Positions 5,401 through 42,984 of a stretch of 45,539 nt of DNA are shown piece by piece. Position numbers and translations under genes: made by a program. This DNA is from Lentimicrobium sp. (GTDB taxonomy: Bacteria > Bacteroidota > Bacteroidia > Bacteroidales > Lentimicrobiaceae): assembly GCA_024709105.1 (NCBI GenBank), contig JANJXJ010000224.1, positions 1 to 45,539 on the forward strand, in the 5' to 3' direction. The notes below the pieces were generated by a model. That model was not told the DNA's origin. It saw nothing but the letters and a program-made list of their open reading frames with translations, and did not search any database. Within the stretch, counting starts at the first letter, position 1. Every line of letters begins with the position of its first letter.

Positions 5401-5402
5401 GA

Positions 5403-7028: not shown

Positions 7029-7092
7029 CACTATTTTATGTTTTGAAGTTTCAGGTGGTTGGGGTGGTTTTAATGCACAAAACATTATGCGA

Positions 7093-17992: not shown

Positions 17993-18048
17993 TTAACACC
18001 TGTGTAATACGTTTGTTCAGGGGTGAATGTCCTGCCGGCAACACTTTT

Positions 18049-28507: not shown

Positions 28508-28570
28508 TAATTTTGCAGCGCACATTTAACAACAAGTGTCGTGCCAATTTGTTTATTGTTGAAATTCAAC
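28508..28570 (+). promoter_or_regulatory. -7 box and 13-base palindrome upstream of the zinc-ribbon gene
   Basis: TAATTTTG (28508-28515) is an exact TAnnTTTG box. GTTGAA-A-TTCAAC (28558-28570) is a perfect palindrome 10 bases before the putative TTG start and could be an operator for the gene's own product. Confidence 0.4.
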
Positions 28571-29036: not shown

Positions 29037-31122
29037 TAAACCTTACCTGTCTCCAGTCATTTACTGAGTTGATTCTCAGTAAATAGACTCCCTGTGGAAG
29101 ATTGCCGGTTTCAATTACCGCCTGACCATTTCCTGTTTTAATCAATGCTTTTCTGCTCATCAGTTTGCCAGTTACATCAAATATGCTGACTTCACTCACA
29201 TTGCTGAAGGAATCTGGTAAAACAATATTCAGAAAATCATCAGCAGGGTTAGGATATACCAGCAGGGTTTTGCCTGCGATAAGATTGTTTTCAACACTTC
29301 CCTGCGGTGCCCAGCTTATTTCCCAGCCGGGGGCAGTACCTTGTCCGTCGGTGGTGAAGACCAGATATGCTTTACCTCCCGGTATAATAACATTTCCCGG
29401 AAGCGAGTCGCCGGTAAGGGAGGCAACAAGCTGCTGATTGCTGAGATCATAGATTTTTAAGAAATCTTTTCCTTCTTCAAGATCAAAATAGTTGAAGGTC
29501 AGCGAGAGAGGAACCAATTGTTCCGGGATGATCCTCCATTTGCAGATGCTGTTGTTCGAGTACTTTTTGTCACCACTGCCATCATCAAATAGTCCTGAAG
29601 GGCTGTTAAAAGTTGTTGTTCCCGAACAATAAACCGGCAAAATACTTTTATAGGAAGCCAGAAATCCGTCTGCATTTCCTTCCTCACCCGAAAACCAGAC
29701 ATAGGCTTCATTGCCGGAAACAGTTATCATTCCGGGATTCTGGTTCTGAGTAACTTCTGCAAGCAGATTCGTCATATTGCTGTTGTCGTAAATCCTGATA
29801 AAATCTCCGTTTGCTAAATCAGCGTAAGGAAACTGCAATTGAATAGACGATATGCTGTCGAAGTCCGGTTCATCGGGAGCTATCTGCCAGAAACATTCGC
29901 TGCCGCCGGGATAATTGATCATGTTGCTGCCATCGGTAAAGGTTCCGCTGATGGTGGTAAGGCTGCTGTTGTTGCTGCAGTATTCAGGATAGTTATACAT
30001 TGTGGTATCAGGGTAGATATCTTTGATCACTTCCTGTGCGAAATTGAAATTATTTCCGCCCGGTGTGAGGGCCGACAGCAGGAAATAACCATCATAAGAT
30101 CCGCTCCAGCCCCAGTTGAAGTGGTAAAAGTTATCAGGTGCATATCCGTCGCAAACAAAAGCATGTCCGTTTTGAGAACCAACGCCTTCCCATCCGGCAT
30201 AATAGAGTGGTTTGCGGGCTTCGAGATTGGCCACCAGAATGCTGTCCCAGTTCATGGTGGTGGTATCTCTGAAAATGTATTGTGTTTGCGGACCATATTT
30301 GAAAAAGTTTCTCATGGAATTGGCCGCACTGTGGTTCCACATTCCCGATCCGTTGGGGCCGTAGTCCATATCAAATGAAATTCCCAGGTGGTAGAGTAAC
30401 TGAGCAATATATGGATTTGCACTGTTCAGTGATGTTTCCATGCCATTCCACAAATAGGTGGTTTCTTCAAAATTGGCGTATTGCACACCATACACGGGGT
30501 GAACATAGCTGTACTCTCCGGTCCCCTGGTTGGGCCAGCGATGATAAAACATCAGCTGCCCTACTGCTGTTGCCACACAGCCGGCGTAACATCGTCCGCC
30601 GGGCCCGGCCGGGTCGGGCGGACAGGCACCGTTGTAATAATTTCCCTGATCCCATTGTGTTTGCAGCATAGGTTCCACGGTTCTGCCCGAAGATTTTATA
30701 TTTCCCGAGAGGTAAGCATCACGTGCCTGAATAATTTGTTCAGGTGTGGAGCCCTGAGATTGGGCAAATTCAATCTGCCTTCCGTAATATCTGAGCCAGG
30801 CCTGCAGCGCTTCGGGCAGGTTTTCGCCGGTAAAGCTGCCTTTCAGGCTGTAACCCAGAACCGGAAAAGTATGCTTGCTTTCTGCAATCAGCACAAAACC
30901 ACCATTTTCGAAATTTACTGCTTTTGCAACTGTAAAATCACCAGCTTTCACATCAGTTGTATTTGTAATTCGCGGTACAAAAACTGAGGACTTGTTGTGA
31001 ATCATTTGCCTTTCGGCGAAAAAATTGCCGGCAATGCGAATATGTTCCGGTTTGCCGGATTGAGCTATCAGTTGAGGTGAAAAACAAATTATGGCAAAAA
31101 GGCAAAGGTAAAAGTGTTTCAT
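29026..31122 (-). CDS. Secreted C10 (streptopain-like) cysteine peptidase with CUB-like domains and T9SS sorting signal
   Basis: The start is set at the ATG at 31122 (MKHFYLCLFAIICFSPQLIAQ), giving 698 residues; the preceding 15 in-frame residues spoil the signal peptide. An N-terminal inhibitory propeptide is likely before the C10 domain, with nucleophile C182 (CYAGCVATAVGQLM) and H320 (QNGHAFVCDGY), followed by YHFNWGWSGSYDGYF. Two CUB-like domains follow, each beginning YCS, with DFIRIYD and DFLKIYD strands. The last 75 or so residues are a type A sorting domain (LLVYPNPADD...GVYLLRI). The protein should be exported by Sec and T9SS and act on extracellular protein. A TATCTTTG box (31153-31146) precedes it. 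Confidence 0.93.
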   Translation of the reverse strand: MKHFYLCLFAIICFSPQLIAQSGKPEHIRIAGNFFAERQMIHNKSSVFVPRITNTTDVKAGDFTVAKAVNFENGGFVLIAESKHTFPVLGYSLKGSFTGENLPEALQAWLRYYGRQIEFAQSQGSTPEQIIQARDAYLSGNIKSSGRTVEPMLQTQWDQGNYYNGACPPDPAGPGGRCYAGCVATAVGQLMFYHRWPNQGTGEYSYVHPVYGVQYANFEETTYLWNGMETSLNSANPYIAQLLYHLGISFDMDYGPNGSGMWNHSAANSMRNFFKYGPQTQYIFRDTTTMNWDSILVANLEARKPLYYAGWEGVGSQNGHAFVCDGYAPDNFYHFNWGWSGSYDGYFLLSALTPGGNNFNFAQEVIKDIYPDTTMYNYPEYCSNNSSLTTISGTFTDGSNMINYPGGSECFWQIAPDEPDFDSISSIQLQFPYADLANGDFIRIYDNSNMTNLLAEVTQNQNPGMITVSGNEAYVWFSGEEGNADGFLASYKSILPVYCSGTTTFNSPSGLFDDGSGDKKYSNNSICKWRIIPEQLVPLSLTFNYFDLEEGKDFLKIYDLSNQQLVASLTGDSLPGNVIIPGGKAYLVFTTDGQGTAPGWEISWAPQGSVENNLIAGKTLLVYPNPADDFLNIVLPDSFSNVSEVSIFDVTGKLMSRKALIKTGNGQAVIETGNLPQGVYLLRINSVNDWRQVRFIRK

Positions 31123-31145
31123 GTTTGTGGAGGTAGATGATGTTT

Positions 31146-31153
31146 CAAAGATA
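31146..31153 (-). promoter_or_regulatory. -7 box for the C10 peptidase gene
   Basis: TATCTTTG on the minus strand is an exact TAnnTTTG match, 23 bases before the reassigned ATG. It lies inside the longer reading frame and so supports the shorter start. Confidence 0.55.
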
Positions 31154-31258
31154 ATAATTTTCCTCAACCTGGTTTGATTTGGGATGGATTTTGGCGACTG
31201 TAATTATTCAGTACACTGTCATGAAATAGTACAGTATAAGTGCGCAGAAAGATGACAC

Positions 31259-31296
31259 TTGTTAACTGATTAACAGGTCTGTTATTTCAATAACAT
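31259..31296 (+). promoter_or_regulatory. Two tandem Rex-operator-like palindromes upstream of the redox island
   Basis: TTGTTAACTGATTAACAG (31259-31276) matches the Rex operator pattern TTGTTAAnnnnTTAACAA at 13 of 14 arm positions. CTGTTATTTCAATAACAT (31279-31296) is a second palindrome with the TGTTA/TAACA core. Their centres are 20 bp apart, two helical turns. They lie about 90-125 bases before the alcohol dehydrogenase start, just upstream of the likely promoter (TTTG 31296-31299; TTATAATTTG near 31322-31331). Rex represses fermentation genes and leaves DNA when NADH is high. A Rex-like protein is encoded three genes downstream. Confidence 0.72.
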
Positions 31297-31383
31297 TTGT
31301 ATATTATTGATAAACAATGTATTATAATTTGTGGCACGGCAATTGGAATAAGGGTACCGACCTAAGTTAAAAAATCAAACAAC

Positions 31384-32550
31384 ATGGCAAGATTCACGCT
31401 ACCCCGCGATCTCTACTTCGGAGAAAACGCACTCGCAGAACTGAAAAAACTAAAAGGCCGCCGTGCTATCATAGTAGTCGGAGGCGGATCTATGAAAAAA
31501 TTCGGCTTTTTGAATCAGGTTGAGACCTACCTTCAGGAAGCAGGAATGGAAACACTGGTATTTGAAGGAGTAGAGCCGGATCCATCGGTGGAAACGGTAA
31601 TGCGGGGAGCTGAAGCCATGCGGCGCTTTGAACCCGACTGGATTGTATCCATCGGAGGCGGATCGCCCATTGATGCAGCCAAAGCCATGTGGGTGTTTTA
31701 CGAACATCCTGAAGCTACATTCGAAGAAGTTGCCAAACCGTTTAATATTCCGGCACTTCGCAACAAAGCCCGTTTTGTAGCCATACCGAGCACCAGCGGA
31801 ACAGCCACCGAGGTAACCGCTTTTTCGGTAATCACCGATTACAAAACCCAGATCAAGTATCCTCTGGCAGATTTTGAGATTACTCCCGATATCGCCATTG
31901 TTGATCCTGCTCTGGCTTACACTATGCCTCAGGAGCTCACCGCCCATACAGGTATGGATGCGCTGGCACATGCTACCGAAGCCTATGTAGCTGTGAACCG
32001 TTCCGATTTTTCAGATCCTCTGGCTCTCAAAGCCATTCAGATGATTAAAGATAACCTGGTAAAATCATACCACGGCGATAAAGTTGCCCGCGACAAAATG
32101 CACATTGCCCAGTGCCTGGCCGGAATGGCATTCTCGAATGCGCTGCTAGGAATTGTACACAGTATGGCCCATAAATCGGGTGCTGTTTTTCATATTCCGC
32201 ACGGATGCCTGAATGCCATTTACATGCCGGTAGTGATTGACTACAACCGCAAGGTTTGTGCAGGCAGGTATGCTGAAATAGCCCGATTCATCGGGTTGCC
32301 GGGCACAACTGACGATGAACTCACCGATGCATACCGCGATTTCTGCACAGGACTGAACGATGAGCTGAATATTCCTCAGACTCTGCAGGCATACGGAATA
32401 ACCGAAGATATGTTCCTCTCGAATGTTGACCGCATTTCTGCCAATGCAGTGCTTGACGCATGTACTGGTTGCAACCCCCGCGAAACCGGCGAAAATGAAT
32501 TCAAAACCTTGTATTCGGCTGCTTATTACGGAAACAAAATAAGCATCTGA
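31384..32550 (+). CDS. Iron-containing alcohol dehydrogenase
   Basis: A 388-residue group III alcohol dehydrogenase. The NAD(P)-binding loop is VVGGGS plus SIGGGSPIDAAKAM, and the metal-binding part shows IVDPAL, THAT-type HTGMDALAHATEAY, GIVHSMAHKSGAVF and HIPHG, with the Asp and three His ligands expected for Fe(II). It closely resembles butanol/ethanol dehydrogenases and the C-terminal half of AdhE. It would reduce an aldehyde with NADH in the cytoplasm and so dispose of reducing equivalents, which fits the Rex-like sites upstream. A hairpin (32589-32617) separates it from the next gene, so part of the transcription may stop there. Confidence 0.93.
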   Translation: MARFTLPRDLYFGENALAELKKLKGRRAIIVVGGGSMKKFGFLNQVETYLQEAGMETLVFEGVEPDPSVETVMRGAEAMRRFEPDWIVSIGGGSPIDAAKAMWVFYEHPEATFEEVAKPFNIPALRNKARFVAIPSTSGTATEVTAFSVITDYKTQIKYPLADFEITPDIAIVDPALAYTMPQELTAHTGMDALAHATEAYVAVNRSDFSDPLALKAIQMIKDNLVKSYHGDKVARDKMHIAQCLAGMAFSNALLGIVHSMAHKSGAVFHIPHGCLNAIYMPVVIDYNRKVCAGRYAEIARFIGLPGTTDDELTDAYRDFCTGLNDELNIPQTLQAYGITEDMFLSNVDRISANAVLDACTGCNPRETGENEFKTLYSAAYYGNKISI

Positions 32551-32588
32551 TCTTACAGATAAGTTCTTTCTCTTTTGTGTGTTTACTT

Positions 32589-32622
32589 ACCGGCAGAAGG
32601 CACTGCTTTCTGCCGGTTTATT
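32589..32622 (+). terminator. Hairpin terminator or attenuator between adh and the flavoprotein gene
   Basis: ACCGGCAGAA (32589-32598) and TTCTGCCGGT (32608-32617) form a perfect 10-bp stem with a 9-base loop, followed by TTATT, a weak T tract. It may reduce read-through into the hydrogenase genes rather than stop it. It lies only 19 bases before the next ATG. Confidence 0.6.
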
Positions 32623-32635
32623 AAAAACCAGCGTT

Positions 32636-33523
32636 ATGTTTACAGTAATCAGCCGCAAAGCCATTGCAAAAGATATTTTACTGATTGAAGTTTTTGCGCC
32701 CCGCATTTCAGCAGCCATTCTTCCCGGTCAGTATATTGAAGTGAAACCTTTAGCCGCATTGCCATATCTGGCGGTTCCGGTAGTAAAGGTCAATGCCACC
32801 ACTGGCACACTAACATTTATGGTGCAAGCCGTTGAACCTACCGGTTCGCTTTTGGTAAATGACCCCGGAATTTCGATTTTCGAAAACATTTCGGGCCCGG
32901 TGGGCAAGCCATCACTGCTTACAGAATGTAATGATCCGGAGCTTAAGTCTGCCAATTTTCTTTTTGTTGCCGGTGGGCTGGGCGTGGCATCTGCAATGGC
33001 GCAGATCAGCTGGCTAAGGAAAATCGGGGCACAGGCCGATGTATTGCTCGAGGCAGATACTCAGGCCAGCCTGTTGTTAAAAGATGAATTTGAAAAAATA
33101 TGCCGGAACGTTTATCTGGCAACTGCCGATGGTAGTCTGGGATTTCATGGTTCAGCCGCTCAATTACTCACAATGCTGCCCCATGAACAGGTGAAGGCCT
33201 ATGACCTGATCACTGTTTTTGGCCCTATGAAGATGATGAAACAAATATCAGACTTCACTTTGAGTCATGGAATCCCCGCTACTGCCGGTTTTGTTGAAAT
33301 ACTTACCTCGGCCGGTCTTACTTCTTTCAGGTTGGATGTGTCTGGCATAGCTGCCGAAGTATCAGTTTCGGGACCCGAATTCAACGCACATCTGGTAGAT
33401 TTTGATCATGCCATAAGCAGGGCAAGCATCAGTGTGAAAACTTCTGATGAATCTGCCGATGTGATAAAACTGAAAGGACTGCCTCCGCAGAAAACAGAAG
33501 GTGCACTGCCCAGACAGGCATAA
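32636..33523 (+). CDS. NfnA/PyrK-like FAD/NAD(P)-binding reductase lacking the [2Fe-2S] cysteines
   Basis: A 295-residue protein from the ATG at 32636 (MFTVISRKAIAKDILLIEVF); the longer frame includes the hairpin. It has an FNR-type FAD domain (PGQYIEVKPLA, FMVQAVEPTGSLL) and an NAD(P) domain (FVAGGLGVASAMAQISWLRK, LATADGSLGFHG, LITVFGPMKMMKQI). It matches the subfamily of NfnA, PyrK and archaeal sulfide dehydrogenase beta. In those proteins a C-terminal CGxCR...C(V/A)DGPEF region holds a [2Fe-2S] cluster. Here the aligned stretch (SAGLTSFRLDVSG...SVSGPEFNAHLVDF) has no Cys; only C98 and C156 exist in the protein. The RxPL/ST flavin motif also reads YLAVPVV. Electron transfer is therefore doubtful and a sensor or adaptor role is possible. 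Confidence 0.83.
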   Translation: MFTVISRKAIAKDILLIEVFAPRISAAILPGQYIEVKPLAALPYLAVPVVKVNATTGTLTFMVQAVEPTGSLLVNDPGISIFENISGPVGKPSLLTECNDPELKSANFLFVAGGLGVASAMAQISWLRKIGAQADVLLEADTQASLLLKDEFEKICRNVYLATADGSLGFHGSAAQLLTMLPHEQVKAYDLITVFGPMKMMKQISDFTLSHGIPATAGFVEILTSAGLTSFRLDVSGIAAEVSVSGPEFNAHLVDFDHAISRASISVKTSDESADVIKLKGLPPQKTEGALPRQA

Positions 33524-33535
33524 AATCAGCGCATC

Positions 33536-34303
33536 ATGGAATCAAGGAACTTCAACTCTCTTTTCAGGCGCTCAGAGCGGAAACGCTTTGTAACCACTGC
33601 TCCTTTTTTTGAAGATCAGGATGAGCCATATGTTTATCCGGGAATCAGCCGGAAAAGGTTGCAGGTAGATGAGGTTAAGCGTTTTGGCTTGTATCTGGCA
33701 TGTCTGAAACTCATGAAACTCAGAGGGAGAATAGATATTTCCATAGAATCCATCGAGGTAGAAACCGGAATAAAAGCATTTCAGATAGAAGAAGACTTTT
33801 TGATGAACGGAATGATGATTTCGGGTCAGAAAGCATTTCATATCAGCAGTTTGATTCGTGCAGCTGAAGAATTACTGGGTTATTACAACGAAACTGAGTC
33901 GTTTCTTGTGGGAGCCGGTAAACTGGGAACTTCGCTGCTGTTAAAGGAAAATCTGGGTCAGACCAGCTTGAAAATAGTGGCGGCATTCGACAACGACTAC
34001 AGAAAAATCGGTAGTCAGATAGGTTCAATTAAGGTAATGTCGCCCGACAAAATAATTCCACTTGCAACACGCATGCATGTCAGTCTTGGAATTATTGCCA
34101 CTCCGGCCGGCGAGGCCTCCCATGTTGCCGATATGCTGGCCGGTGCAGGCATGAAAGCCATCTGGAATTTTACCCCCGATTCCATTGCCCCCGGCAACGA
34201 CATAATTGTGGTGAATACCCGGCCTGGTGATGATATTGGCGCAGCTTATGACCTGATTACAGCCAAACTGAGAAGCAAATCAGGCAGCAACCCATTAATT
34301 TAA
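33536..34303 (+). CDS. Rex-like winged-helix/NAD-binding protein with altered recognition helix
   Basis: A 255-residue protein. About 45 N-terminal residues are extra, then a winged-helix region (46-115) and a Rossmann domain with SFLVGAGKLGTSLLL (122-136), KIVAAFDND and the C-terminal signature LGIIATPAGEASHVADMLAGAG and KAIWNFTP, all typical of the NADH-binding domain of Rex. In Rex the recognition helix carries a conserved Arg-Arg-Asp; here the aligned segment reads FQIEEDFLM. DNA binding by the usual contacts is therefore uncertain. It sits between the flavoprotein and a [2Fe-2S] ferredoxin with 12- and 2-base gaps. It may be a divergent Rex acting on the sites at 31259-31296, or an NADH-sensing protein partner without DNA binding. 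Confidence 0.78.
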   Translation: MESRNFNSLFRRSERKRFVTTAPFFEDQDEPYVYPGISRKRLQVDEVKRFGLYLACLKLMKLRGRIDISIESIEVETGIKAFQIEEDFLMNGMMISGQKAFHISSLIRAAEELLGYYNETESFLVGAGKLGTSLLLKENLGQTSLKIVAAFDNDYRKIGSQIGSIKVMSPDKIIPLATRMHVSLGIIATPAGEASHVADMLAGAGMKAIWNFTPDSIAPGNDIIVVNTRPGDDIGAAYDLITAKLRSKSGSNPLI

Positions 34304-34305
34304 AC

Positions 34306-34566
34306 ATGATGAATCCACAATTCAGGATAGTTATTTGCATGGGAAGTTCATGCTATGCCCGGGGCAACCGTGTGAGCCTCGAAATCATCAAAGCCTGGCT
34401 GGCTGAGCGGAAAATTGATGCCGAAATCAGTTTTAAAGGTCAGTTATGCTCGGGGCTTTGCAGCAAAGGGCCTGTGTTGATTATCAACGATCATGCTTAT
34501 CAGGACGTAAATCCGGCCAACGTGATCAACATTCTGAAAGGCGCTCTCAATGGTGTAAATGTTTGA
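34306..34566 (+). CDS. Thioredoxin-like [2Fe-2S] ferredoxin (NuoE/HydA-associated type)
   Basis: An 86-residue protein whose four Cys follow the thioredoxin-like [2Fe-2S] pattern: C11 and C16 (CMGSSCYARG), C48 and C52 (LCSGLCSKGP). The fold is that of the C-terminal part of NuoE and of HndA/HydC-type hydrogenase subunits. It would pass electrons between a flavoprotein or hydrogenase and another carrier in the cytoplasm. The start may be either ATG of the ATGATG at 34306. It ends 11 bases before the sensory hydrogenase gene. Confidence 0.88.
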   Translation: MMNPQFRIVICMGSSCYARGNRVSLEIIKAWLAERKIDAEISFKGQLCSGLCSKGPVLIINDHAYQDVNPANVINILKGALNGVNV

Positions 34567-34577
34567 ATTTTGATGCA

Positions 34578-36302
34578 ATGGACAGAATGCAGCCTGTTTT
34601 CACCGAAACCAACAATTGCCAGGATTGCTACAAATGCATCAGGGAATGTCCGGTGAAAGCCATTAGAATTGAGTCAGACCGGGCATCCATTGTCAAAGAG
34701 TTCTGCATTTTTTGCGGACGTTGCACCTTGATTTGTCCCTCGGGAGCCAAAAAAGTGCGCGATGATGTTTCGCGGGTAAAACGAATGTTGCGCCGCGAAA
34801 AACCTGTCTATGTTTCATTAGCTCCTTCGTTTGTTGCTGAATTTCCGGAGTTTACACCCGGAGAACTGGTTGCGGTCATCCGCAAGCTGGGTTTTGCCGG
34901 AGTGTCGGAGACGGCCTTAGGCGCAGAAAGAGTTACCAGAGAAACACATGCCTTTCTTTGTCAATCGGAGCCTGGTATTTTTATCAGTTCAGCCTGCCCT
35001 TCGGCCGTTGATTATATACGCAAATATTGTCCGGAACTCACTACTTCTATTATATCTGTTAACTCACCACTGATGGCACATGCAGCCATGCTCCGGCAGT
35101 ATTTTGGAAGCGAAATCAGGGTGGTCTTTATCGGACCGTGTGTTGCAAAAAAGAATGAATCCGATGATTTTTCGTCACTGGTGGATGCAGCACTCACCTT
35201 CCGCAACCTGAGAAACTGGCTGGAGGAAGAAGGATTGATTTCGGGACTGATCAGCCCCTTTGCTGAAGAATCGTTTGTACCGTTTACATCTGCTGATGGC
35301 AGCTTGTATCCCATGGATGGCGGAATGACTTCAACCATTACCAATCTGGGCAGATGCAAAGATGTTAGTTATATGCATGTTTCAGGTATTGAAAATATTA
35401 AGAGTGGATTAAAAGGCATTCAAAATACAATACCAGGAAAACAAAAGATATTTCTTGAACTGCTGGTATGCGATGGCGGCTGCCTGAATGGCCCCGGCAT
35501 GTCGCAGAATCATGGAACCATCATAAAAAATCTTCAGGTTGAGAATTACCGGGCGGGCCTGGCAAGGGAGGCAGTGGTACTGGCTGATGAAGCCAGTGTT
35601 CCTGTGCGTTCTGATTTTTGTACCATCAGTCAGCCGGTGGTGGTTTCCGGTTTCAGCGAAGCCGAAATTGAAGAGGCTCTGAAAACAGTAGGTAAAAGTT
35701 CAAGATCAGATGAGCTGAATTGCGGGGGTTGCGGCTACAACAGTTGCAGAGACTTTGCCATTGCCATGCTCCGCGATATGGCAGAGCGGCAGATGTGTGT
35801 TTCGTATATGCGGCGGGTAGCTTCGGATAAGGCAAGTGTTTTGTTGCAGCGCATGCCTTATGGTGTAATTCTGGTAGATGACAGTCTTCATATTATAGAA
35901 AGCAACCGTGCATTTGCAAATCTGGTTGGCAACGACCTGCCTTTGCTCTGGGAAGCAAGGCCGGGGCTTCAGGGAGCCGACATACGCAAAATGCTGGGCT
36001 ATCATAAAGTATTCAGCAATGTGTTGTCCTCAGGCAACGATTTGATTGATAAAAATATAGATGAAAAGGGAAGAATGATTAATCTCTCCGTTTTCACCAT
36101 ACAGCGGCATCGTATTGTTTGCGGTATTGTTCAGGATTTGCATCAGCCCGAAATTATTCAGGAGCAGGCAATTGGTAAAATACGGCAGGTTGTACGCGAA
36201 AACATGGCAACAGTGCAGAAGGTGGCATTTCTTTTGGGTGAGAACGCTGCCCGCACCGAAGCCATGTTGAATGCCCTGGTAACCGAGCAAAACAAACACT
36301 GA
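34578..36302 (+). CDS. Sensory-type (group C, HydS) [FeFe]-hydrogenase with PAS domain
   Basis: A 574-residue protein from the ATG at 34578; the longer frame overlaps the ferredoxin gene. Two [4Fe-4S] motifs come first (C14/17/20/24 and C43/46/49/53). The H-cluster domain has P1 ISSACPSAV (C140), P2 FIGPCVAKKNE (C188) and P3 VCDGGCLNGPG (C298, C302), so all four cluster ligands are kept. The proton-relay Cys that precedes the P1 ligand in catalytic enzymes is Ala139. A further four-Cys domain (NCGGCGYNSC...C407) and a PAS domain (about 420-520, MPYGVILVDDSLHIIESNRAF) follow. This is the architecture of group C hydrogenases, thought to sense H2 or redox state rather than turn over rapidly. The next gene, 1 base on, is a PP2C-like phosphatase, the usual partner. 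Confidence 0.9.
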   Translation: MDRMQPVFTETNNCQDCYKCIRECPVKAIRIESDRASIVKEFCIFCGRCTLICPSGAKKVRDDVSRVKRMLRREKPVYVSLAPSFVAEFPEFTPGELVAVIRKLGFAGVSETALGAERVTRETHAFLCQSEPGIFISSACPSAVDYIRKYCPELTTSIISVNSPLMAHAAMLRQYFGSEIRVVFIGPCVAKKNESDDFSSLVDAALTFRNLRNWLEEEGLISGLISPFAEESFVPFTSADGSLYPMDGGMTSTITNLGRCKDVSYMHVSGIENIKSGLKGIQNTIPGKQKIFLELLVCDGGCLNGPGMSQNHGTIIKNLQVENYRAGLAREAVVLADEASVPVRSDFCTISQPVVVSGFSEAEIEEALKTVGKSSRSDELNCGGCGYNSCRDFAIAMLRDMAERQMCVSYMRRVASDKASVLLQRMPYGVILVDDSLHIIESNRAFANLVGNDLPLLWEARPGLQGADIRKMLGYHKVFSNVLSSGNDLIDKNIDEKGRMINLSVFTIQRHRIVCGIVQDLHQPEIIQEQAIGKIRQVVRENMATVQKVAFLLGENAARTEAMLNALVTEQNKH

Positions 36303-36303
36303 G

Positions 36304-37491
36304 ATGGAAGGCGGTGAAATCTACATCGAAATAGCAGCCCGGCAACTCAGCAAAAAAGGTGAGTCTATCTGCGGTGATGTTTTTCTTTCCAGGAAAATTC
36401 AGGAAGAAAACAGGGTAATTACTGTGCTCAGCGATGGGCTGGGCAGCGGCGTAAAAGCCAATGTGCTGGCAACGCTCACAGCTACCATGGGCCTGAATTT
36501 TACAGTAGAAAGATATCCGCATGAGCTCACAGCGCGAACCATCCTCGATACACTTCCTGTTGACAGGGCCCGAAAAATAAGCTATGCTACTTTTACCATT
36601 GTAGACAGCGATGCTGATGGTGAAACCCGCATTGTAAACTTCGACAATCCGGCCCCTCTCATCATCCGCAACCGTAAGTTGCTGAAACCAGACAGAAAAC
36701 GCCTGGTGATTGATAAAAAGGCTGGCAATGAGCGCGAACTGGAGTACTCCACTTTTAATGCCCGCCGCGAGGACAGAATTGTGCTGGTCACCGATGGTGT
36801 AAGTCAATCGGGAATTGGCACTGCCATGTACCCATTCGGCTGGGACGTGCCCGATATTGGTGGTTGGATTTGCGGTGTGCTTGAGCAGGAGCCGGGAATT
36901 TCGGCTGCTGATCTTTCGGGCAGACTGGTAGAGAGAGCACATGCCAACGATATTTTCTCAGCCCGCGATGATGCATCCTGTGTGGTAATCTATTTCAGAA
37001 GACCCAGGAAACTGCTGTTGTGCTCGGGCCCGCCATATCATAATGCCGACGACACCAGACTTGCGAAGATTGTGGAGTCATTTGCCGGACAAAAAGTACT
37101 CTGCGGTGGTACAACAGCCGAAATTGTTGCCAGAGAAACACAGCAGGAGGTTGAGGTGAGCCTCGACTCCATGTCTGATGGAATTCCTCCGGCATCGCAA
37201 ATGAAAGGAGTAGATCTGGTAACTGAAGGAGTGCTGACACTAGGCCGGGTTTCGGCCCGTTTGGAGGAGGGGGTAAATACACCTGTAAGGGGAAAAGATG
37301 CTGCATCTGCTTTGTTGAATCTTTTGCTGAATAACGATCAGATATTTTTACTGGCCGGCACCCGAATCAACGAGGCACATCAGGATCCCAGCCTGCCTGT
37401 TGAGCTGGAAATCCGCAGAAATGTGGTAAAAAAAATCAGGCGGCTTCTCGAAAATAAGTATCTCAAAGAGGTACATCTTGATTTTATCTGA
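36304..37491 (+). CDS. SpoIIE/PP2C-like Ser/Thr phosphatase linked to HydS
   Basis: A 395-residue protein. The N-terminal 230 or so residues are a SpoIIE-type PP2C domain with the metal-binding acidic motifs CGDVF, VLSDGLGSG, LVTDGVSQSG and SARDDASCVVIYF. The C-terminal 160 residues (from KLLLCSGPPYHNADD) form an additional domain seen in hydrogenase-linked phosphatases; its role is not known to me. Group C hydrogenases regularly neighbour such phosphatases, so the protein is inferred to be the output that dephosphorylates a Ser/Thr-phosphorylated target when HydS senses H2. No matching kinase is encoded in this window. It follows hydS by 1 base. Confidence 0.87.
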   Translation: MEGGEIYIEIAARQLSKKGESICGDVFLSRKIQEENRVITVLSDGLGSGVKANVLATLTATMGLNFTVERYPHELTARTILDTLPVDRARKISYATFTIVDSDADGETRIVNFDNPAPLIIRNRKLLKPDRKRLVIDKKAGNERELEYSTFNARREDRIVLVTDGVSQSGIGTAMYPFGWDVPDIGGWICGVLEQEPGISAADLSGRLVERAHANDIFSARDDASCVVIYFRRPRKLLLCSGPPYHNADDTRLAKIVESFAGQKVLCGGTTAEIVARETQQEVEVSLDSMSDGIPPASQMKGVDLVTEGVLTLGRVSARLEEGVNTPVRGKDAASALLNLLLNNDQIFLLAGTRINEAHQDPSLPVELEIRRNVVKKIRRLLENKYLKEVHLDFI

Positions 37492-37505
37492 AAAATACCC
37501 TGAAA

Positions 37506-37778
37506 ATGACTGAAAAAACAGAAGTAAGTATTTGTTTCGGAACCCTGTGCTTCATTATGGGTGGATCTGCTTTTGAACTGCTTTCCGAACATCTGGACGA
37601 AGAACTCAGGGAAAAGACTCTGATCAGGGGGATGAATTGCCCGGGGTACTGCAATCAAACATCCGAGTACGGAAAACCTCCTTTTGTAAAGGTAAATAAT
37701 ACCCTGATAAGTGAGGCCAATCTGCAAAAGGTAATTACTGCTGTTAAAAAGGAGGTATTACATGGCGCAGACAAATAA
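37506..37778 (+). CDS. Thioredoxin-like [2Fe-2S] ferredoxin, second copy
   Basis: A 90-residue protein with the thioredoxin-like [2Fe-2S] Cys set: C10 and C15 (CFGTLCFIMGG), C45 and C49 (NCPGYCN). It shares the pattern of the ferredoxin at 34306 but little other sequence, so the two are not a recent duplication. It overlaps the start of the group B hydrogenase gene by 17 bases and is probably its electron partner. Confidence 0.88.
   Translation: MTEKTEVSICFGTLCFIMGGSAFELLSEHLDEELREKTLIRGMNCPGYCNQTSEYGKPPFVKVNNTLISEANLQKVITAVKKEVLHGADK
37749..37755 (+). promoter_or_regulatory. Strong Shine-Dalgarno site for the group B hydrogenase
   Basis: AAGGAGG lies 6 bases before the ATG at 37762, inside the ferredoxin gene. 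Near-perfect Shine-Dalgarno sites are rare in Bacteroidota, so it helps fix this start and suggests high or independent translation. Confidence 0.65.
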
Positions 37779-39213
37779 TGCCACCCTCATTCGCAGGGAG
37801 ATCATTACCCGCCTGTGCCGGCTGTATGCCGAAAACCGGCTCGATGAGATCGACCGCATTCCTCTGGAAATGGCTCCCCGCAATACCACGGCTCATAATT
37901 CGCGCTGCTGCATTCATAAGGCAAGGGCAATCATCAGGTACAGAATCATGGCCCTGCTTGGGTTTAATGTGGCTGATGAAACCGACGAACTTGAAACTTT
38001 GTACAGCTATGCACTGAGGTCGCTTGCCGGAACCGACCGCGGAAAAGGTGTGCTTACGGTGGTTGACGAAGCCTGCACCTCGTGTGTAAAAAGTAATTAT
38101 ACCGTTTCAAACCTCTGCAGGGGTTGCCTGGCCTCACATTGTATGGTTACCTGTCCAAAACAGGCAATTACCATGGAAAACGGACAAGCGAAGATTGACC
38201 CGGCCCGATGTGTGGGCTGTGGCCTTTGCCAGGATGCATGCCCGTATCATGCCATTATTTATGTGCCTATTCCCTGCGAAGAATCTTGTCCGGTTAAGGC
38301 CATTTACCGCAATGCTCAGGGTATTGAAGAGATTGATTACGAAAAGTGCATACATTGTGGAAAATGTATGGTGGCTTGCCCGTTTGGCGCAATTATGTAC
38401 CGTTCGCAACTGATACATGTACTGCATCAGATTGCCAAACCTGCGAAACCTGTGGTGGCCATGCTGGCTCCGGCGGTTTGCGGGCAGTTCAGGGCCGATT
38501 ATACCGCTGTTGCGGATGCCGTTAAACGACTCGGATTCACCGACGTGTTTGAAGTAGCCGAAGGAGCTGTACTTACAGCCCGGCACGAAGCCGGAGAGCT
38601 TGCTGCGCATTTGGAGTCGGGCCGTGAGTTTCTCACAACTTCCTGCTGTCCGGCATGGGTAGAGATGGCCCACAAGCACCTGCCTAAATTTTTACCTGAT
38701 GTTTCTGAAACCTGGTCACCCATGCGGTACTCTGCTTCAATGATCAGGGAAAAATACCCCGATGCAATGGTTGTTTTTATAGGACCCTGTGTTGCCAAAC
38801 AGGCAGAGGCCTTAAAATACCCGGGAGTTGATTTTGTAATGACCTTCGAGGAACTCGGTTCTTTGATGATAGCGCTGAATGTTGATTTTCAGGATTCTGA
38901 TGCCTCCGTGCCTGGCGAAGTTATACGCGAACGGGCATTTGCCATCAGCGGCGGTGTGGCCGGTGCTGTAGCACAGTATTATCAGGGAGAAGTATTAAAA
39001 CCATTGGTAATCAATGGTATTAACAAGAAAAACATTGCCCTGCTGCGCAAACTGTCTGCCACAAAACATGACTATAATTTGATTGAAGTAATGGCTTGCG
39101 AGGGTGGCTGTTTGTCGGGGCCTGCTGGTATCAGCGCACCGGCAGTGGCGCGTAAGCTTTTTAATGCCAGGTCGGGCATATCGGTTGACCAGATTGCAAT
39201 TACCGGATTTTAA
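37762..39213 (+). CDS. Group B [FeFe]-hydrogenase
   Basis: A 483-residue single-subunit enzyme. A Cys-rich N-terminal part (C105/C108/C119/C122/C127/C131) precedes [4Fe-4S] motifs at C150-C160 and C196-C206, with a further CEESCP at 172-176. The H-cluster motifs are canonical: TTSCCPAWVEM (relay C295, ligand C296), FIGPCVAKQAEA (C343) and VMACEGGCLSGPAG (C446, C450). This arrangement fits group B hydrogenases of Clostridia and Bacteroidota, presumed ferredoxin-dependent and H2-evolving or bifurcating in the cytoplasm. Maturation genes hydE, hydF and hydG are not in the window. Only 25 bases separate it from the carboxyltransferase gene, with no terminator, so read-through is likely. Confidence 0.93.
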   Translation: MAQTNNATLIRREIITRLCRLYAENRLDEIDRIPLEMAPRNTTAHNSRCCIHKARAIIRYRIMALLGFNVADETDELETLYSYALRSLAGTDRGKGVLTVVDEACTSCVKSNYTVSNLCRGCLASHCMVTCPKQAITMENGQAKIDPARCVGCGLCQDACPYHAIIYVPIPCEESCPVKAIYRNAQGIEEIDYEKCIHCGKCMVACPFGAIMYRSQLIHVLHQIAKPAKPVVAMLAPAVCGQFRADYTAVADAVKRLGFTDVFEVAEGAVLTARHEAGELAAHLESGREFLTTSCCPAWVEMAHKHLPKFLPDVSETWSPMRYSASMIREKYPDAMVVFIGPCVAKQAEALKYPGVDFVMTFEELGSLMIALNVDFQDSDASVPGEVIRERAFAISGGVAGAVAQYYQGEVLKPLVINGINKKNIALLRKLSATKHDYNLIEVMACEGGCLSGPAGISAPAVARKLFNARSGISVDQIAITGF

Positions 39214-39238
39214 AAAAGTAACGTAAACAAAAATAGAC

Positions 39239-40795
39239 ATGAAAGTTTCAGAAAAACTAGCGCTGTTAAAGGCTAAAAGAGAAAAGGCCTCGGCCATGGG
39301 AGGGCGTGAAAGGGTGGATAAACAACACGAAAAAGGCAAACTTACAGCCCGCGAAAGAATTGAGCTGCTGTTTGATGAAAATACATTCCGTGAAATAGAC
39401 ACTTTTGTTTCGCACCGTTCCACCAATTTTGGAATGGAGAAAACAGAAATAGTTTCAGATGGTGTAATCACCGGGCATGGACTGGTAAACGGCCGGCCGG
39501 TATTTGCCTTTTCGCAGGATTTTACCTCAAGTGGCGGATCGCTGGGCGAGATGCATGCCGCCAAAATCTGCAAAATCATGGATCTCGCCATTAAGGCAGG
39601 AGTGCCTGTGGTAGGACTCAATGATTCAGGAGGTGCAAGGGTAGAAGAGGGGGTTGATGCATTAAAAGGATATGGAGAGATATTCTTCAGAAACTCAAGG
39701 GCTTCGGGAGTTATTCCGCAAATTTCTGCGATTATGGGGCCATGTGCCGGTGGTGCGGTTTATTCTCCGGCCATGACCGACTTTGTGTTTATGGTGAAGA
39801 AAACCAGCCATATGTTCATCACGAGCCCTTATGTTATTAAGACTGTGACCGGCGAAGAAACCACATTCGAAGAGCTGGGTGGTGCCATGGTGCACAATAC
39901 CAAAAGCGGAAATGCACATTTTGCCTGCGAAAATGATGAACATACCATTGAGCAGATCAGGGAATTGCTTGATTATCTGCCCGATAACAATATGAGTTCA
40001 CCTCCACGCATAGGCATGGGCGATGATCCTGCGCGTGAGTGCGAAATGCTGAACACCATTATTCCTGATGATGCCAGAACCCCCTACGATATGAAAGAGA
40101 TCATCAGGGAAGTGGTGGATGCAGGCGATTTTTTTGAAGTTCATGAACACTTTGCAGAAAACTGCATCGTGGGTTTTGCCCGCCTCAACGACAGATCGGT
40201 TGGTATAATTGCCAATCAGCCCATGGTTTCTGCCGGCTGTCTCGATATTGATGCTTCCGACAAAATCAGCAGGTTTATCCGTACCTGCGACGCCTTTAAC
40301 ATTCCGCTCATCACTTTTGTGGATGTACCCGGATATCTGCCCGGTGTTCATCAGGAATGGGGCGGAATCATCAGGCATGGCGCAAAGTTGCTGTGGTCGT
40401 ATTCCGAAGCTACAGTGCCCAAGTTTACAGTTGTAATTCGCAAGGATTATGGCGGGGCTTATCTGGCCATGAGTGCCAAACAACTGGGAGCTGATATGGC
40501 ATTTGCCTGGCCGACCGCCGAAATTGCCGTGATGGGTGCCAAAGGTGCTGTGGAAGTGCTTTCGGGTTACCGAAAGGAAATCAAGGAAGCTGCCGATAAA
40601 GAAGCCAAAACCAAAGAGAAGATAGCTGAGTACGAAGAGGCATTTAATGTGCCGTATCTGGCTGCACAAAGAGGGTACATTGATGAGGTAATTCTGCCTT
40701 CTGAAACCCGGCAGCGGCTCATTGATGCCCTGGAAGTAATGGCTACCAAAACCGAAGCCCTTCCTCCCAAAAAACATGGTAATATCCCTCAATAA
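39239..40795 (+). CDS. mmdA: Methylmalonyl-CoA/propionyl-CoA-type carboxyltransferase (12S-like subunit)
   Basis: A 518-residue acyl-CoA carboxyltransferase with both crotonase-like halves. Landmarks are GKLTARERIELLFDENTFREID, FSQDFTSSGGSLGEMHA, GLNDSGGARVEEGVDAL, IMGPCAGGAVYSPA, a second oxyanion region VDVPGYLPGVHQEWGGIIRHGAKLL and DMAFAWPTAEIAVMGAKGAV. It transfers CO2 between carboxybiotin and propionyl/methylmalonyl-CoA. With the biotin-bearing protein two genes on, it could form a methylmalonyl-CoA:pyruvate transcarboxylase or part of methylmalonyl-CoA decarboxylase. No membrane beta subunit gene is adjacent, which favours a soluble complex. Confidence 0.92.
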   Translation: MKVSEKLALLKAKREKASAMGGRERVDKQHEKGKLTARERIELLFDENTFREIDTFVSHRSTNFGMEKTEIVSDGVITGHGLVNGRPVFAFSQDFTSSGGSLGEMHAAKICKIMDLAIKAGVPVVGLNDSGGARVEEGVDALKGYGEIFFRNSRASGVIPQISAIMGPCAGGAVYSPAMTDFVFMVKKTSHMFITSPYVIKTVTGEETTFEELGGAMVHNTKSGNAHFACENDEHTIEQIRELLDYLPDNNMSSPPRIGMGDDPARECEMLNTIIPDDARTPYDMKEIIREVVDAGDFFEVHEHFAENCIVGFARLNDRSVGIIANQPMVSAGCLDIDASDKISRFIRTCDAFNIPLITFVDVPGYLPGVHQEWGGIIRHGAKLLWSYSEATVPKFTVVIRKDYGGAYLAMSAKQLGADMAFAWPTAEIAVMGAKGAVEVLSGYRKEIKEAADKEAKTKEKIAEYEEAFNVPYLAAQRGYIDEVILPSETRQRLIDALEVMATKTEALPPKKHGNIPQ

Positions 40796-40805
40796 CACCC
40801 CTGAA

Positions 40806-40985
40806 ATGACACGCAAGGAAATGAAAATGAAAGCCGCTGCTGTTGCCGTAAGTTATTACCTGAAGAATCAGTGTGAAACCTGCGAAAATGTGTCGGTGAA
40901 CGAATGGGCCAGAACTGGCCTGAAAATGGCCATGAACAGCAGAGAAATTCTGCAGCTTAAAGGCAGAATGCCCCGAAATAAATAA
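40806..40985 (+). CDS. 59-residue protein resembling the soluble tail of carboxyltransferase delta/epsilon subunits
   Basis: The start is set at the ATG at 40806 (MTRKEMKMKAAAVAVSYYLKNQ), since the longer frame overlaps mmdA. There is no membrane segment. The pattern AAAVAVSYYL...WARTGLKMAMNSREIL recalls the C-terminal soluble part of OadG/MmdD-type subunits, which helps hold these complexes together; the small MmdE of Veillonella has a similar role and size. The gene sits exactly between the two carboxyltransferase genes with gaps of 10 and 21 bases, so a structural role in that complex is inferred. C33 and C36 (CETC) are unexplained. Confidence 0.65.
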   Translation: MTRKEMKMKAAAVAVSYYLKNQCETCENVSVNEWARTGLKMAMNSREILQLKGRMPRNK

Positions 40986-41006
40986 TCACCCAAAACTTTT
41001 AAAAAC

Positions 41007-42920
41007 ATGACGAACTTTGATAAACACGGGGTTCTTGAAATGACCCCCATGAATTATAACCCCGACAGGCCAGTAGCTGCAAACCCGGTAAAAATTCAGG
41101 ATGTGAGCCTGCGTGACGGCCACCAGTCGCTGTTTGCAACCCGTGGCCGCACCGAAGATATGATTCCGGTTGCCGAAATGATGGATGAGGTTGGTTTTCA
41201 TGCCATTGAAACCTGGGGTGGAGCCACTTTTGATACCATGCACCGTTACCTGAACGAAGATCCCTGGGAAAGGTTGAGAATCCTGAAGAAATATATGCCC
41301 AAAACTCCGTTCTTTATGTTGTTGCGCGGACAAAATGTTGTGGGCTACCGCAATTATGCCGACGATGTGGTAGAAGCTTTTGTGCAAAGAGCCTGCGACA
41401 ACGGAATGGACATATTCCGCTGCTTCGACGCCCTGAACGATTACCGCAATTTTGAAACGGCTGCCAGAGTAGTCAAGCGAAACAACAGGCATTTCCAGGG
41501 TACCATATGTTATACGCTCACCGAACCCAGGCTGGGCGGAGAAATATATAACATTGATTACTACCTGAATAAAGCCAAGGAACTCCTCGAATTTGGGGTA
41601 GATTCCATTTGCATTAAAGATATGGCCGGCCTGATCGCGCCATACGACATTTATAATCTGGTAAGGGAACTGAAAAAATTAACTGATGTTCCCATCAACC
41701 TGCACACCCACTTTACTTCAGGTATGGGCGATCTGGCCATCTTCAAAGCCATTGAAGCAGGTGTGGATATTGTGGATACCTGTATGTCGCCATACGCTTA
41801 CCGCACTTCGCATGCAGCCATTGAACCGCTGGTAATTTCGCTGCTTGGTACTAACAGAGACACGGGGCTCGACATCAGAAAACTCTCAGCCATCAGTGCA
41901 AAAATGGAAGAGTTTATTCCCAAATACAGGCATCTTGACAACAACCCAAAGTATTCGATTATTGATACTGATGTTATTATGCATCAGACTCCCGGGGGCA
42001 TGTTGTCGAATCTGGTTAATCAGCTTAAGCAGATGAATGCTCTGGATAAGCTTGAAGATGTGTTCAGATTGCTTCCCAAGGTTCGCCGCGACCTCGGACA
42101 AATTCCTCTGGTAACCCCCACCAGTCAGATTGTTGGAGTACAAACCGTGAACAATGTACTTTTTGATTCCTACGAAGGCGAGTATTCAAAAATTACAGAA
42201 CAGGTGAAGGATTTGTGTTTCGGTCTTTACGGTACCACCACCAGACCCATCAGCGATGAGCTGCGCAAAAAGGCATTAAAAGACTATCCCAGAGGCGAAA
42301 ACTTTATTGAATGTCGCCCCGGAAGCGTGCTGGAGCCCGAAATGCCCAAAGTTACCGAAGATGCCAGAGGCCTTGCCAGAGACATAGATGATGAGCTGAT
42401 CGTAGCTCTTTATCCCGTTACCGGCAAACGATTCCTCAAATGGAAATACGGCTTTGAAACACCGCCCGATGATGTAAAAGCCAGAACTATGGAAGACGTT
42501 AAACGGGAGGAAGAACTTATCAAAGCCGCATTGAGCGGAGAATTGTCGCAAAAAAAGACCGACACAGCACTCAATGAACTGGAAGTATTTGTTGATGGTG
42601 AGAAGTTTACAGTGGCCATTCCTGATTTTCAGGCTTCGCCCGGCAGCCGCAGGGTTCGCAAACCACGCAAGGAAACCGAAAAGCAAACCGTTGTGGCAAC
42701 AGGTGCACTCACAGCGCCCATTCCCGGTATGCTGGTTGAGTTTAAAAAGAAAAACGGCGATGTGGTGAAGGCAGGTGAAACAGTGGCGGTGATTGAAGCC
42801 ATGAAAATGATGAACAACATCAAAGCAACTGCCGATGGAGTTATTTCGGGTATTAAGTTTAATCCCGGCGATGCGGTAGCCAAAAACGACATACTTTTTA
42901 TTGTTGAGCCCGCTGTTTAA
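41007..42920 (+). CDS. Pyruvate/oxaloacetate carboxyltransferase fused to biotin carrier domain (OadA/PycB-like, 5S-1.3S)
   Basis: A 637-residue protein. The TIM-barrel carboxyltransferase has VSLRDGHQSLFATR (metal Asp), IETWGGATFD, CIKDMAGLIAPYD (carbamylated Lys) and NLHTHFTSGMG (metal His pair). A conserved PYC/OADA helical domain follows to about residue 480. A charged, Lys/Arg-rich linker leads to the C-terminal biotinyl domain with EAMKMMN and the preceding PIPGMLVEF. It exchanges CO2 between pyruvate/oxaloacetate and biotin. Placed after mmdA and without a decarboxylase membrane subunit, it completes a plausible Propionibacterium-type transcarboxylase with its 1.3S subunit fused. A terminator follows. 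Confidence 0.92.
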   Translation: MTNFDKHGVLEMTPMNYNPDRPVAANPVKIQDVSLRDGHQSLFATRGRTEDMIPVAEMMDEVGFHAIETWGGATFDTMHRYLNEDPWERLRILKKYMPKTPFFMLLRGQNVVGYRNYADDVVEAFVQRACDNGMDIFRCFDALNDYRNFETAARVVKRNNRHFQGTICYTLTEPRLGGEIYNIDYYLNKAKELLEFGVDSICIKDMAGLIAPYDIYNLVRELKKLTDVPINLHTHFTSGMGDLAIFKAIEAGVDIVDTCMSPYAYRTSHAAIEPLVISLLGTNRDTGLDIRKLSAISAKMEEFIPKYRHLDNNPKYSIIDTDVIMHQTPGGMLSNLVNQLKQMNALDKLEDVFRLLPKVRRDLGQIPLVTPTSQIVGVQTVNNVLFDSYEGEYSKITEQVKDLCFGLYGTTTRPISDELRKKALKDYPRGENFIECRPGSVLEPEMPKVTEDARGLARDIDDELIVALYPVTGKRFLKWKYGFETPPDDVKARTMEDVKREEELIKAALSGELSQKKTDTALNELEVFVDGEKFTVAIPDFQASPGSRRVRKPRKETEKQTVVATGALTAPIPGMLVEFKKKNGDVVKAGETVAVIEAMKMMNNIKATADGVISGIKFNPGDAVAKNDILFIVEPAV

Positions 42921-42945
42921 GCAGTAGTTCATAAACTGAGATTTG

Positions 42946-42984
42946 CCTGATATGTCCTTTGCGGATGTGTCAGGTATTTTTTTT
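42946..42984 (+). terminator. Rho-independent terminator of the carboxyltransferase/hydrogenase island
   Basis: Bases 42946-42957 pair with 42963-42974 as a continuous 12-bp RNA stem that includes three G-U pairs, with a 5-base loop. A T run (42977-42984) follows. It lies 25 bases after the biotin-protein stop and marks the end of the island. Confidence 0.88.

Follow-up and report, generated by a model that had tools for sequence, protein, structure and literature searches.

The window analyzed here, contig JANJXJ010000224.1 at its full length of 45,539 nucleotides (C22 in our numbering), belongs to a 4.47-Mb draft genome of Lentimicrobium sp. (239 contigs; 97% complete) in which three loci (C22, C187, and C190) together encode eight [FeFe]-hydrogenase domains. 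Between 31.26 and 42.92 kb, a single strand carries what we propose to be an H2-sensing operon built onto an alcohol dehydrogenase (ADH) gene. In this operon, adh is followed by genes for an NfnA-like protein (NfnA*), a Rex-family protein (RexL), a ferredoxin (Fdx1), a sensory hydrogenase (HydS), a phosphatase, a second ferredoxin-like protein (Fdx2), and a catalytic hydrogenase (HydA), with carboxylase genes downstream (Table 1). The open reading frame (ORF) list and Pfam/NCBIfam profiles identified all named genes as intact ORFs of the families listed in a first-pass annotation of this DNA; Fdx2 had no Pfam match in the scan of the window proteins, and no Pfam family matched the small ORF between mmdA and oadA.

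Table 1. Coordinates of the operon, its promoter elements, hairpins, and downstream neighbors in the window
Feature	Coordinates	Strand	Remarks
Two upstream repeats, TGT-N11-ACA type, putative enhancer-binding protein (EBP) sites	31199..31233	31199-31215 on -, 31217-31233 on +	
Rex-type operator 1, TTGTTAACTGATTAACA	31259..31275	+	Exact palindrome
Rex-type operator 2	31280..31295	+	Looser palindrome, ~20 bp from operator 1
Sigma-54-type -24/-12 element, TGGCACG-N4-TTG	31332..31345	+	52 bp before ADH start
Iron alcohol dehydrogenase (Fe-ADH, adh)	31384..32550	+	PF00465/PF25137
adh-nfnA* intergenic hairpin resembling a terminator or attenuator	32589..32617	+	
NfnA*, NfnA-like protein lacking the FAD motif and [2Fe-2S] cysteines	32636..33523	+	
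RexL, Rex-family protein	33536..34303	+	Non-canonical helix-turn-helix (HTH)/wing; GAGKLG loop retained
Fdx1, thioredoxin-like [2Fe-2S] ferredoxin	34306..34566	+	PF01257
HydS, sensory-type [FeFe]-hydrogenase	34578..36302	+	FeS domain (PF04060); conserved C-terminal segment
SpoIIE/PP2C-type phosphatase	36304..37491	+	PF07228
Fdx2, small [2Fe-2S]-type protein	37506..37778	+	Weak NuoE match, E 0.0017; conserved position
HydA, group B [FeFe]-hydrogenase, catalytic type	37762..39213	+	TIGR04105
MmdA-type carboxyltransferase	39239..40795	+	PF01039; neighbor, outside module
Small ORF, 59 aa, mmdA-oadA interval	40806..40985	+	
PycB/OadA-type carboxytransferase subunit with biotinyl domain	41007..42920	+	NF006761, 681.6 bits vs cut-off 402; neighbor
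Intrinsic-terminator-like hairpin 3′ of oadA	42944..42976	+	

HydS retains the four H-cluster cysteines (C140, C188, C298, and C302), which are invariant in 12/12 aligned rows and which we take to match C300, C355, C499, and C503 of CpI. Its SACP and GPC motifs place an alanine at the proton-relay cysteine and a glycine at the near-cluster methionine; the relay position is occupied by alanine in nine of the 12 HydS rows, by cysteine in two, and by glycine in one. The C-terminal segment, a candidate contact with the phosphatase, includes an LLGEN motif that is invariant in the 12 rows. The same Ala and Gly pattern is found in the Thermotoga sensor TmHydS, for which the available text reports A131 and G177 in place of the relay cysteine and near-cluster methionine (PMC10055695). 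A HydS paralogue in the same genome matched PAS_9 with an E value of 4.5e-4, below the cut-off of that family. The group B HydA scored 500.4 bits with TIGR04105 (cut-off, 450).

Conservation was assessed at three levels. The genus set, which equals the family, comprises 19 genomes; the NfnA-like gene occurs in 8/19 and a C22-type HydS (at least 65% identity) in 10/19, two of these loci being cut by contig ends. The order ADH, NfnA*, RexL, HydS, phosphatase is identical in the eight genomes that hold the NfnA-like gene, and HydA follows in 8/10 HydS loci, being absent there from genomes G160 and G159. In the order-level set (149 genomes), nine further genomes encode full-length HydS relatives of 41 to 48% identity, and another genome (G058) carries one as two contig pieces (49 to 53% identity). 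The 20 regions fetched included seven loci of other families (L069-L074 and L076) with the complete core Fdx1-HydS-phosphatase-Fdx2-HydA, two (L075 and L077) with HydS and phosphatase without HydA, and three (L078, L079, and L081) cut by contig ends. Finally, a GTDB scan provided the best 80 of at least 557 HydS relatives, some titled as members of other phyla; a HydS gene was called in 77 loci, the other three were dropped from the tallies, and many of these loci are cut by contig ends. Within 6 kb and on the same strand, the 77 loci contain the phosphatase in 72 cases, which makes it a near-constant partner of HydS, a group B hydrogenase in 46, and Fdx1 and Fdx2 in 64 and 42, respectively; the ferredoxin counts are lower bounds because greedy ORF calling misses small ferredoxins overlapping longer ORFs. 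A Rex of either kind (15 loci), ADH (11), intact NfnA (7), and NfnB (7) are less frequent, and the five loci with NfnA* are genus members (L171-L175). The HydS-phosphatase pair also occurs in Marinifilum, Labilibaculum, and Odoribacter laneus, where the operon strings show no ADH, Nfn, or RexL. Clusters with two HydS-phosphatase pairs are seen in L071 (G089), in L179, L187, and L190 of Marinifilum/Labilibaculum, and in further loci. Gene order is thus conserved, and the absence of any conserved order, which the first-pass annotation had named as grounds against its island, was not observed: adh to phosphatase throughout the eight genus genomes, and ADH, Nfn, Rex-like protein, HydS, phosphatase, and hydrogenase together in some other families.

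This arrangement resembles hfsABCD of Thermoanaerobacterium and the HydS/HydA2 pair of Ruminococcus albus, with which, according to the available text of the reports, the window shares the order HydS, serine phosphatase, ferredoxin-linked hydrogenase (PMC5707799 and PMC11837493). In some Bacteroidota relatives, the HydS module and an intact nfnAB lie in one physical cluster. Unlike hfs, the window has genes for an iron ADH, an NfnA-like protein, and RexL in front, small ferredoxins flanking HydS and the hydrogenase, and a promoter of the sigma-54 plus Rex type. Among the papers listed in searches of open-licence literature, none concerned, by title or abstract start, the ADH-NfnA-RexL-HydS arrangement or a cofactor-less NfnA. 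In a study on group B hydrogenases of gut Bacteroides, a word count of the main text gave neither operon nor phosphatase, and Rex figures solely in an author's name (PMC12578642).

NfnA* scored 150.9 bits with NCBIfam profile NF004862, under the cut-off of 220, and had no Pfam match. This protein had been described as a flavoprotein stripped of its cluster; indeed, the [2Fe-2S] cysteines are absent, and the flavin adenine dinucleotide (FAD) motif of the ERIPLT type is missing too. Both features are lacking in 8/8 genus proteins and present in 25/25 other NfnAs compared. In a tree that left out duplicates L010 and L022 and loci L031-L038, the genus proteins form one group with a support of 100/100. 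The predicted model of NfnA* (mean pLDDT 85) appears to have the NfnA fold in common, with subunit 5jca_S of NfnI as its best PDB match (TMq 0.78; E 2.8e-25). Compared with NfnA, the small subunit of NADH-dependent ferredoxin:NADP oxidoreductase, NfnA* has neither FAD motif nor cluster cysteines nor an adjoining NfnB: the window operon contains no NfnB, and the genome yielded no second NfnA-like match at E 1e-8, in a search that was not extended to NfnB itself. The glycine-rich nucleotide loop (AGGLG), inspected by eye, is largely retained in 6/8 proteins and altered in L148 and L149. Loss of this nicotinamide adenine dinucleotide (NAD) loop was considered and rejected, as the regular expression came out blank also for many intact NfnAs.

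Two relatives, L184 and L215, hold the series EBP-ADH-NfnA-NfnB-RexL-HydS (L215 ends there, and Fdx1 was called in neither). We therefore infer that the ancestor of the window operon had this fuller form, and that nfnB was then lost while the cofactor sites of nfnA decayed. The ratio of nonsynonymous to synonymous substitutions (dN/dS) of NfnA* ranges from 0.12 to 0.21 (six pairs from four genus genomes; dS, 0.55 to 1.06), and that of RexL from 0.13 to 0.16 in the same number of pairs and genomes. Since these ratios are well below 1 and the eight ORFs are intact, NfnA* was rejected as a pseudogene. The same data bear on the explanation that the locus is a set of ordinary neighbors, i.e., a known hfs-type operon beside ADH and carboxylase genes, in which NfnA* and RexL persist as decaying leftovers without present function. 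The loss of NfnB and of the NfnA* cofactor motifs would fit such decay, as would the variable operon content between families, the lack, at this locus, of hydA in G160 and G159 and of mmdA in G150, and the amino acid identities between the window and its relatives, which are lowest for NfnA* and RexL among the seven genes tested. Nonetheless, both proteins are encoded by intact ORFs under purifying selection in 8/8 genomes and have conserved residues in common across genomes, so that we regard this explanation as improbable.

RexL surpassed the cut-off of the whole-protein Rex model NF003994 (152 versus 130 bits) and remained below those of the other Rex models tested. Its match to the Rex HTH family PF06971 reached only 19.4 bits (cut-off, 27), similar to the 17.6 to 22.5 bits found in seven genus genomes; the domain was undetected in G158. 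Relative to canonical Rex, both the recognition helix and the wing are changed, in agreement with the altered DNA helix pointed out in the first-pass annotation, and the GAGKLG nucleotide loop is retained. The best PDB matches of the RexL model are Rex proteins (3wg9_D; E 2.5e-16), but the predicted structure superposes poorly overall (TMq 0.41; rmsd 13.6) and residues 1 to 39 have a pLDDT below 50. Outside the genus, the HTH is likewise below the cut-off in L073, L184, L186, and L215 and without a match in L177; several rows from outside the genus also lack the glycine-rich loop. In the Rex tree, 13 RexL rows of our own selection fall together with L049, whose gene lies directly behind an ADH gene, on one side of a branch with 100/100 support; the strongly diverged L075 and L077 proteins (RexL match of 20 to 22 bits; no Pfam family in L075) were left out. 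We are unsure of the inner order of this group because L069, L215, and L244 sit on long branches. HydS operons with a Rex outside the RexL group are L080, L081, L082, L205, L218, and L250. An initial impression from an E 1e-10 search that RexL is the sole Rex of this genome was discarded, as a canonical Rex was found at C190, in an operon with hydABC and a HydS-kinase; a Rex HTH above the cut-off is available in 17/19 genus genomes. C190 (L083) is a second H2-sensing locus, with hydABC-type genes, a HydS-histidine kinase, response regulators, and the canonical Rex, and its hydABC/Rex operon is divergent from Fdx-HydS-SpoIIE, with two Rex-type sites in between. Another locus, L205 (Ignavibacteria in its title), carries three Rex-family genes around hydABC and HydS.

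The region upstream of adh combines three types of elements. Rex-type operator sites, as named in the first-pass annotation, are present, one as an exact and one as a looser palindrome. That annotation had not remarked on the sigma-54-type element, the upstream repeats, the hairpin 3′ of adh, or the other hydrogenase loci of the genome (C187 and C190). With up to one mismatch, the Rex-type pattern matched the window three times versus 0.21 expected by shuffling; two of these matches are operator 1 read on both strands, and the third is at 18046. Operator 1 has a counterpart in 8/8 genus promoters (18-letter pattern with at most one mismatch in 7/8 and two mismatches in the remaining one), and a site with at most one mismatch occurs in 56/1319 control upstream regions. 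Operator 2 is found with at most two mismatches in 5/8 genus promoters and with three in 3/8. The genome contains 30 distinct positions within one mismatch of the pattern; six of them are at hydrogenase operons on C22, C187, and C190, where by our own arithmetic from the genome count chance would provide ~0.01 sites in ~2 kb of promoter sequence. Further sites precede genes for an aldehyde:ferredoxin oxidoreductase homologue (C57) and a thioesterase (C211), adjoin a gene for an octaheme cytochrome (C196), or lie in the interval from nqrA to a type IX secretion system gene (C190); 8/15 regions fetched around Rex-type matches in this genome (L135-L142) had no site of the stricter form. In other families, a strict scan found no Rex site in 15 upstream regions (L069 to L082), and a looser scan with further loci added found sites within one mismatch in L184 and L049.

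These sites could be taken to mean that RexL is a working, re-specialized repressor that binds before its own operon and reads NADH directly. Sites and RexL co-occur in 8/8 genus genomes, the full-length Rex equivalog score is above its cut-off, the GAGKLG loop and, in the predicted model, N-terminal-domain helices are kept, and L049, an ADH-RexL pair of another family, has a perfect site. Against this, sites of the same kind stand at the C187 and C190 operons, and the features expected of a DNA-binding protein, an HTH scoring above the Pfam cut-off and an ordinary recognition helix and wing, are those that RexL lacks throughout the genus. Given the atypical HTH of RexL and the canonical Rex elsewhere in the genome, control of the operon by RexL itself is doubtful, and we consider the repressor explanation unlikely.

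The second element, TGGCAYG-N4-TTG, is present in 8/8 genus promoters, 52 to 58 bp 5′ of the start codon. It was scored with the consensus TGGCAYRN4TTGCW, which was loosened once the genus promoters had been inspected; the window element has one mismatch, and the genus promoters have at most one in 7/8 cases and two in the other. Among ADH-first operons of the genus and outside it, the element was found with at most two mismatches in 16/16 and at most one in 12/16 (8/8 and 5/8, respectively, outside the genus), as compared with 104/1319 and 20/1319 control regions, which include the test promoters themselves and duplicated genomes. Two further copies of TGGCACG-N4-TTG were set aside: that at 28533-28546, 46 bp 5′ of a thioredoxin gene, has a similar sequence in L149 and is not conserved in the other aligned loci, and a third copy on C141, ~4 kb from an EBP gene, revealed no link. 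The third element, the pair of TGT-N11-ACA repeats, was recognized by eye in all seven (of eight) genus promoters whose contig reaches that far and in the ADH promoters of L071, L075, and L077. In relatives, an EBP gene lies directly 5′ of the operon (L073, L075, and L077 by Pfam; L071 by ~50 to 53% identity), and one occurs within 6 kb on the same strand in 7/77 HydS loci. The Lentimicrobium genome itself encodes 10 EBP domains, with the closest homologue at C140 beside genes that by eye are NuoE/NuoF-like.

The same combination of a -24/-12 element before an ADH gene and TGT-N10-12-ACA upstream sites is described, in the available text, for AdhR/sigma-54 control of adhA in Clostridium beijerinckii (PMC7017808 and PMC6615313), and the window repeats agree with the type reported for AdhR-group sites of Clostridiales (PMC6615313). 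The window differs from that system in its Bacteroidota host, in the Rex-type sites between repeats and promoter, and in that an EBP gene adjoins the operon only in relatives. The available part of a sigma-54 regulon study contains no such operon (PMC12316311).

The stable hairpin between adh and nfnA* is present in 8/8 genus loci, as judged from hairpins that were not compared with shuffled sequences. A hairpin 3′ of adh also occurs in 5/7 relatives, clear in L184, L215, L204, L176, and L071, weak in L077, and absent from L075. In several loci it is backed by a T-run, which is broken in the window, and the terminator scan of the window that lists the oadA hairpin does not list the adh one. 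It may act as an attenuator that sets ADH above the downstream genes. From nfnA* to oadA, intergenic gaps do not exceed 25 bp, and one is an overlap.

The first-pass annotation had joined the redox genes and the carboxyltransferase genes into a single island, and an operon deliberately coupling H2, alcohol, and propionate, with a carboxylase step co-regulated by the redox/H2 sensors, deserves consideration here. The gap of 25 bp between hydA and mmdA is terminator-free, the next terminator-like hairpin being that 3′ of oadA, and MmdA follows the module in 8/9 assessable genus loci; it is missing at that of G150, which lacks the carboxylase genes, and the contig of G152 ends in hydA. However, MmdA lies within 6 kb in only 4/77 HydS loci, three genus members and L238; outside the genus, this amounts to 1/72 called loci, with different neighbors. 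There was no MmdA match among the 20 fetched regions of relatives and comparison loci. A single regulatory island that takes in the carboxylase was therefore rejected, given that MmdA rarely accompanies the module in loci beyond the genus. Deliberate coupling seems to us very unlikely; the carboxylase genes are best described as a neighbor in this genus, outside the widespread module. The window MmdA scored 859.5 bits with TIGR01117, below the cut-off of 998.8, and its Carboxyl_trans domain itself is clear. In L238 (Tidjanibacter in its title), an MmdA-type gene set with partners unlike those of the window lies directly upstream of Fdx1-HydS; no MmdA was labelled at L212, the other Tidjanibacter locus. 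On the other side of the operon, divergent from adh, the window encodes a cysteine peptidase of the C10 family that also carries Spi inhibitor, CUB, and type IX sorting domains (29026-31167), which is syntenic in those genus loci that extend far enough. Two adjoining genes at 4816-7085 encode a 2-oxoacid:ferredoxin oxidoreductase with POR domains, which may supply the hydrogenases with electrons.

Gene content and order, conservation, promoter elements, motif losses, and selection can be read directly from the sequence. On these grounds, we lean slightly toward the window operon being a Bacteroidota relative of the hfs operon, in which a module for H2 sensing has been added to an alcohol dehydrogenase. 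Under the action of an AdhR/AcoR-like EBP, a sigma-54 promoter would switch the operon on, and the canonical Rex of the hydABC locus at C190, acting on the Rex-type sites, would keep it off at low NADH. ADH would dispose of NADH as alcohol, and the adh hairpin would set ADH above the following genes. HydS, probably with Fdx1, would bind H2 at a tuned H-cluster and pass its state via its C-terminal part to the SpoIIE/PP2C phosphatase, which would act on a phosphoprotein and thereby alter hydrogenase or ADH output. HydA with Fdx2 would make H2. RexL would go back to a Rex, and NfnA* to the NfnA subunit of an NfnAB pair such as some relatives encode at this position. They have lost DNA-binding or electron-transfer features, yet purifying selection persists; therefore, we take them to assist the HydS complex as accessory partners with a nucleotide-sensing or structural role. 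In this genus, the carboxylase genes would simply ride along.

H2-to-alcohol control is the best, partly supported, reading of the operon because of the genetics of Thermoanaerobacterium. In the available text of those studies, deletion of hfsA or hfsB raises ethanol and adhE transcripts (PMC5707799 and PMC11837493), an effect described for deletion of the HydS homologue (PMC5707799), and high ethanol requires hfsD, hydAB, and nfnAB with hfsB absent (PMC11837493). Of the proposed switch among H2, alcohol, and propionate, the H2/alcohol branch thus gains partial support from this precedent and the conserved gene order, whereas the propionate branch is not supported.

Several observations weigh against this reading. 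On the sensor side, the window HydS had no PAS match among the Pfam families listed at E 0.01. G160 and G159 lack Fdx2 as well as hydA at the locus, and both keep mmdA. NfnA* and RexL evolve faster than ADH (dN/dS, ~0.03 to 0.06), and NfnA* also has higher ratios than most HydS pairs (0.06 to 0.15). An HTH above the Pfam cut-off is found in the RexL of L244 (47 bits) and in the Rex next to HydS in L205 (35 bits), the latter protein being outside the RexL group, and canonical Rex is encoded inside the HydS operons L080, L081, and L082. At the promoter, Rex sites are mostly missing from the RexL-bearing operons of other genera (present within one mismatch in 2/11), which also argues against RexL as their repressor, and strand matches to the Rex-type pattern genome-wide (43) are not clearly more numerous than those to a reversed control (37). 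The -12 part of the window sigma-54-type element is without the usual C; genome-wide, this element has three exact matches versus two for the reversed pattern, and the TGT-N11-ACA repeats have eight (two exact and six with one mismatch) versus eight. Operons of the HydS type that do not start with ADH have the sigma-54 element with at most two mismatches in 3/8 cases and with at most one in 1/8, and no EBP gene adjoins the operon within the window. Finally, the adh hairpin speaks against one uniform transcript, and co-transcription of adh with the remaining genes is doubtful because this stable structure stands between adh and nfnA* in all eight genomes.

A further reading is, in our view, possible if rather unlikely. 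RexL and NfnA* may be retired NAD(H) proteins that now serve, without enzymatic activity or DNA binding, as sensor subunits informing Fdx1-HydS-phosphatase of the nucleotide state, so that H2 and NADH would be read jointly by one post-translational switch between alcohol and hydrogen. The parts of the locus that appear most surprising are the retained cofactor-less NfnA*, the RexL group, and the combination of putative sigma-54 and Rex elements in the promoter of an operon for an H2 sensor.

Two reports describe signal transfer from HydS-type H2 sensors as unclear (PMC10055695 and PMC10084766). The recurring operon provides defined candidate partners for it, namely, a single phosphatase, a pair of ferredoxins, RexL, and NfnA-like proteins. 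The presence of ADH, NfnAB, and an H2 sensor in one operon of some relatives is an independent genomic sign of the link between ethanol, H2, and Nfn known from Thermoanaerobacterium genetics. In this lineage, the operon hints at a possible way of balancing alcohol against hydrogen.

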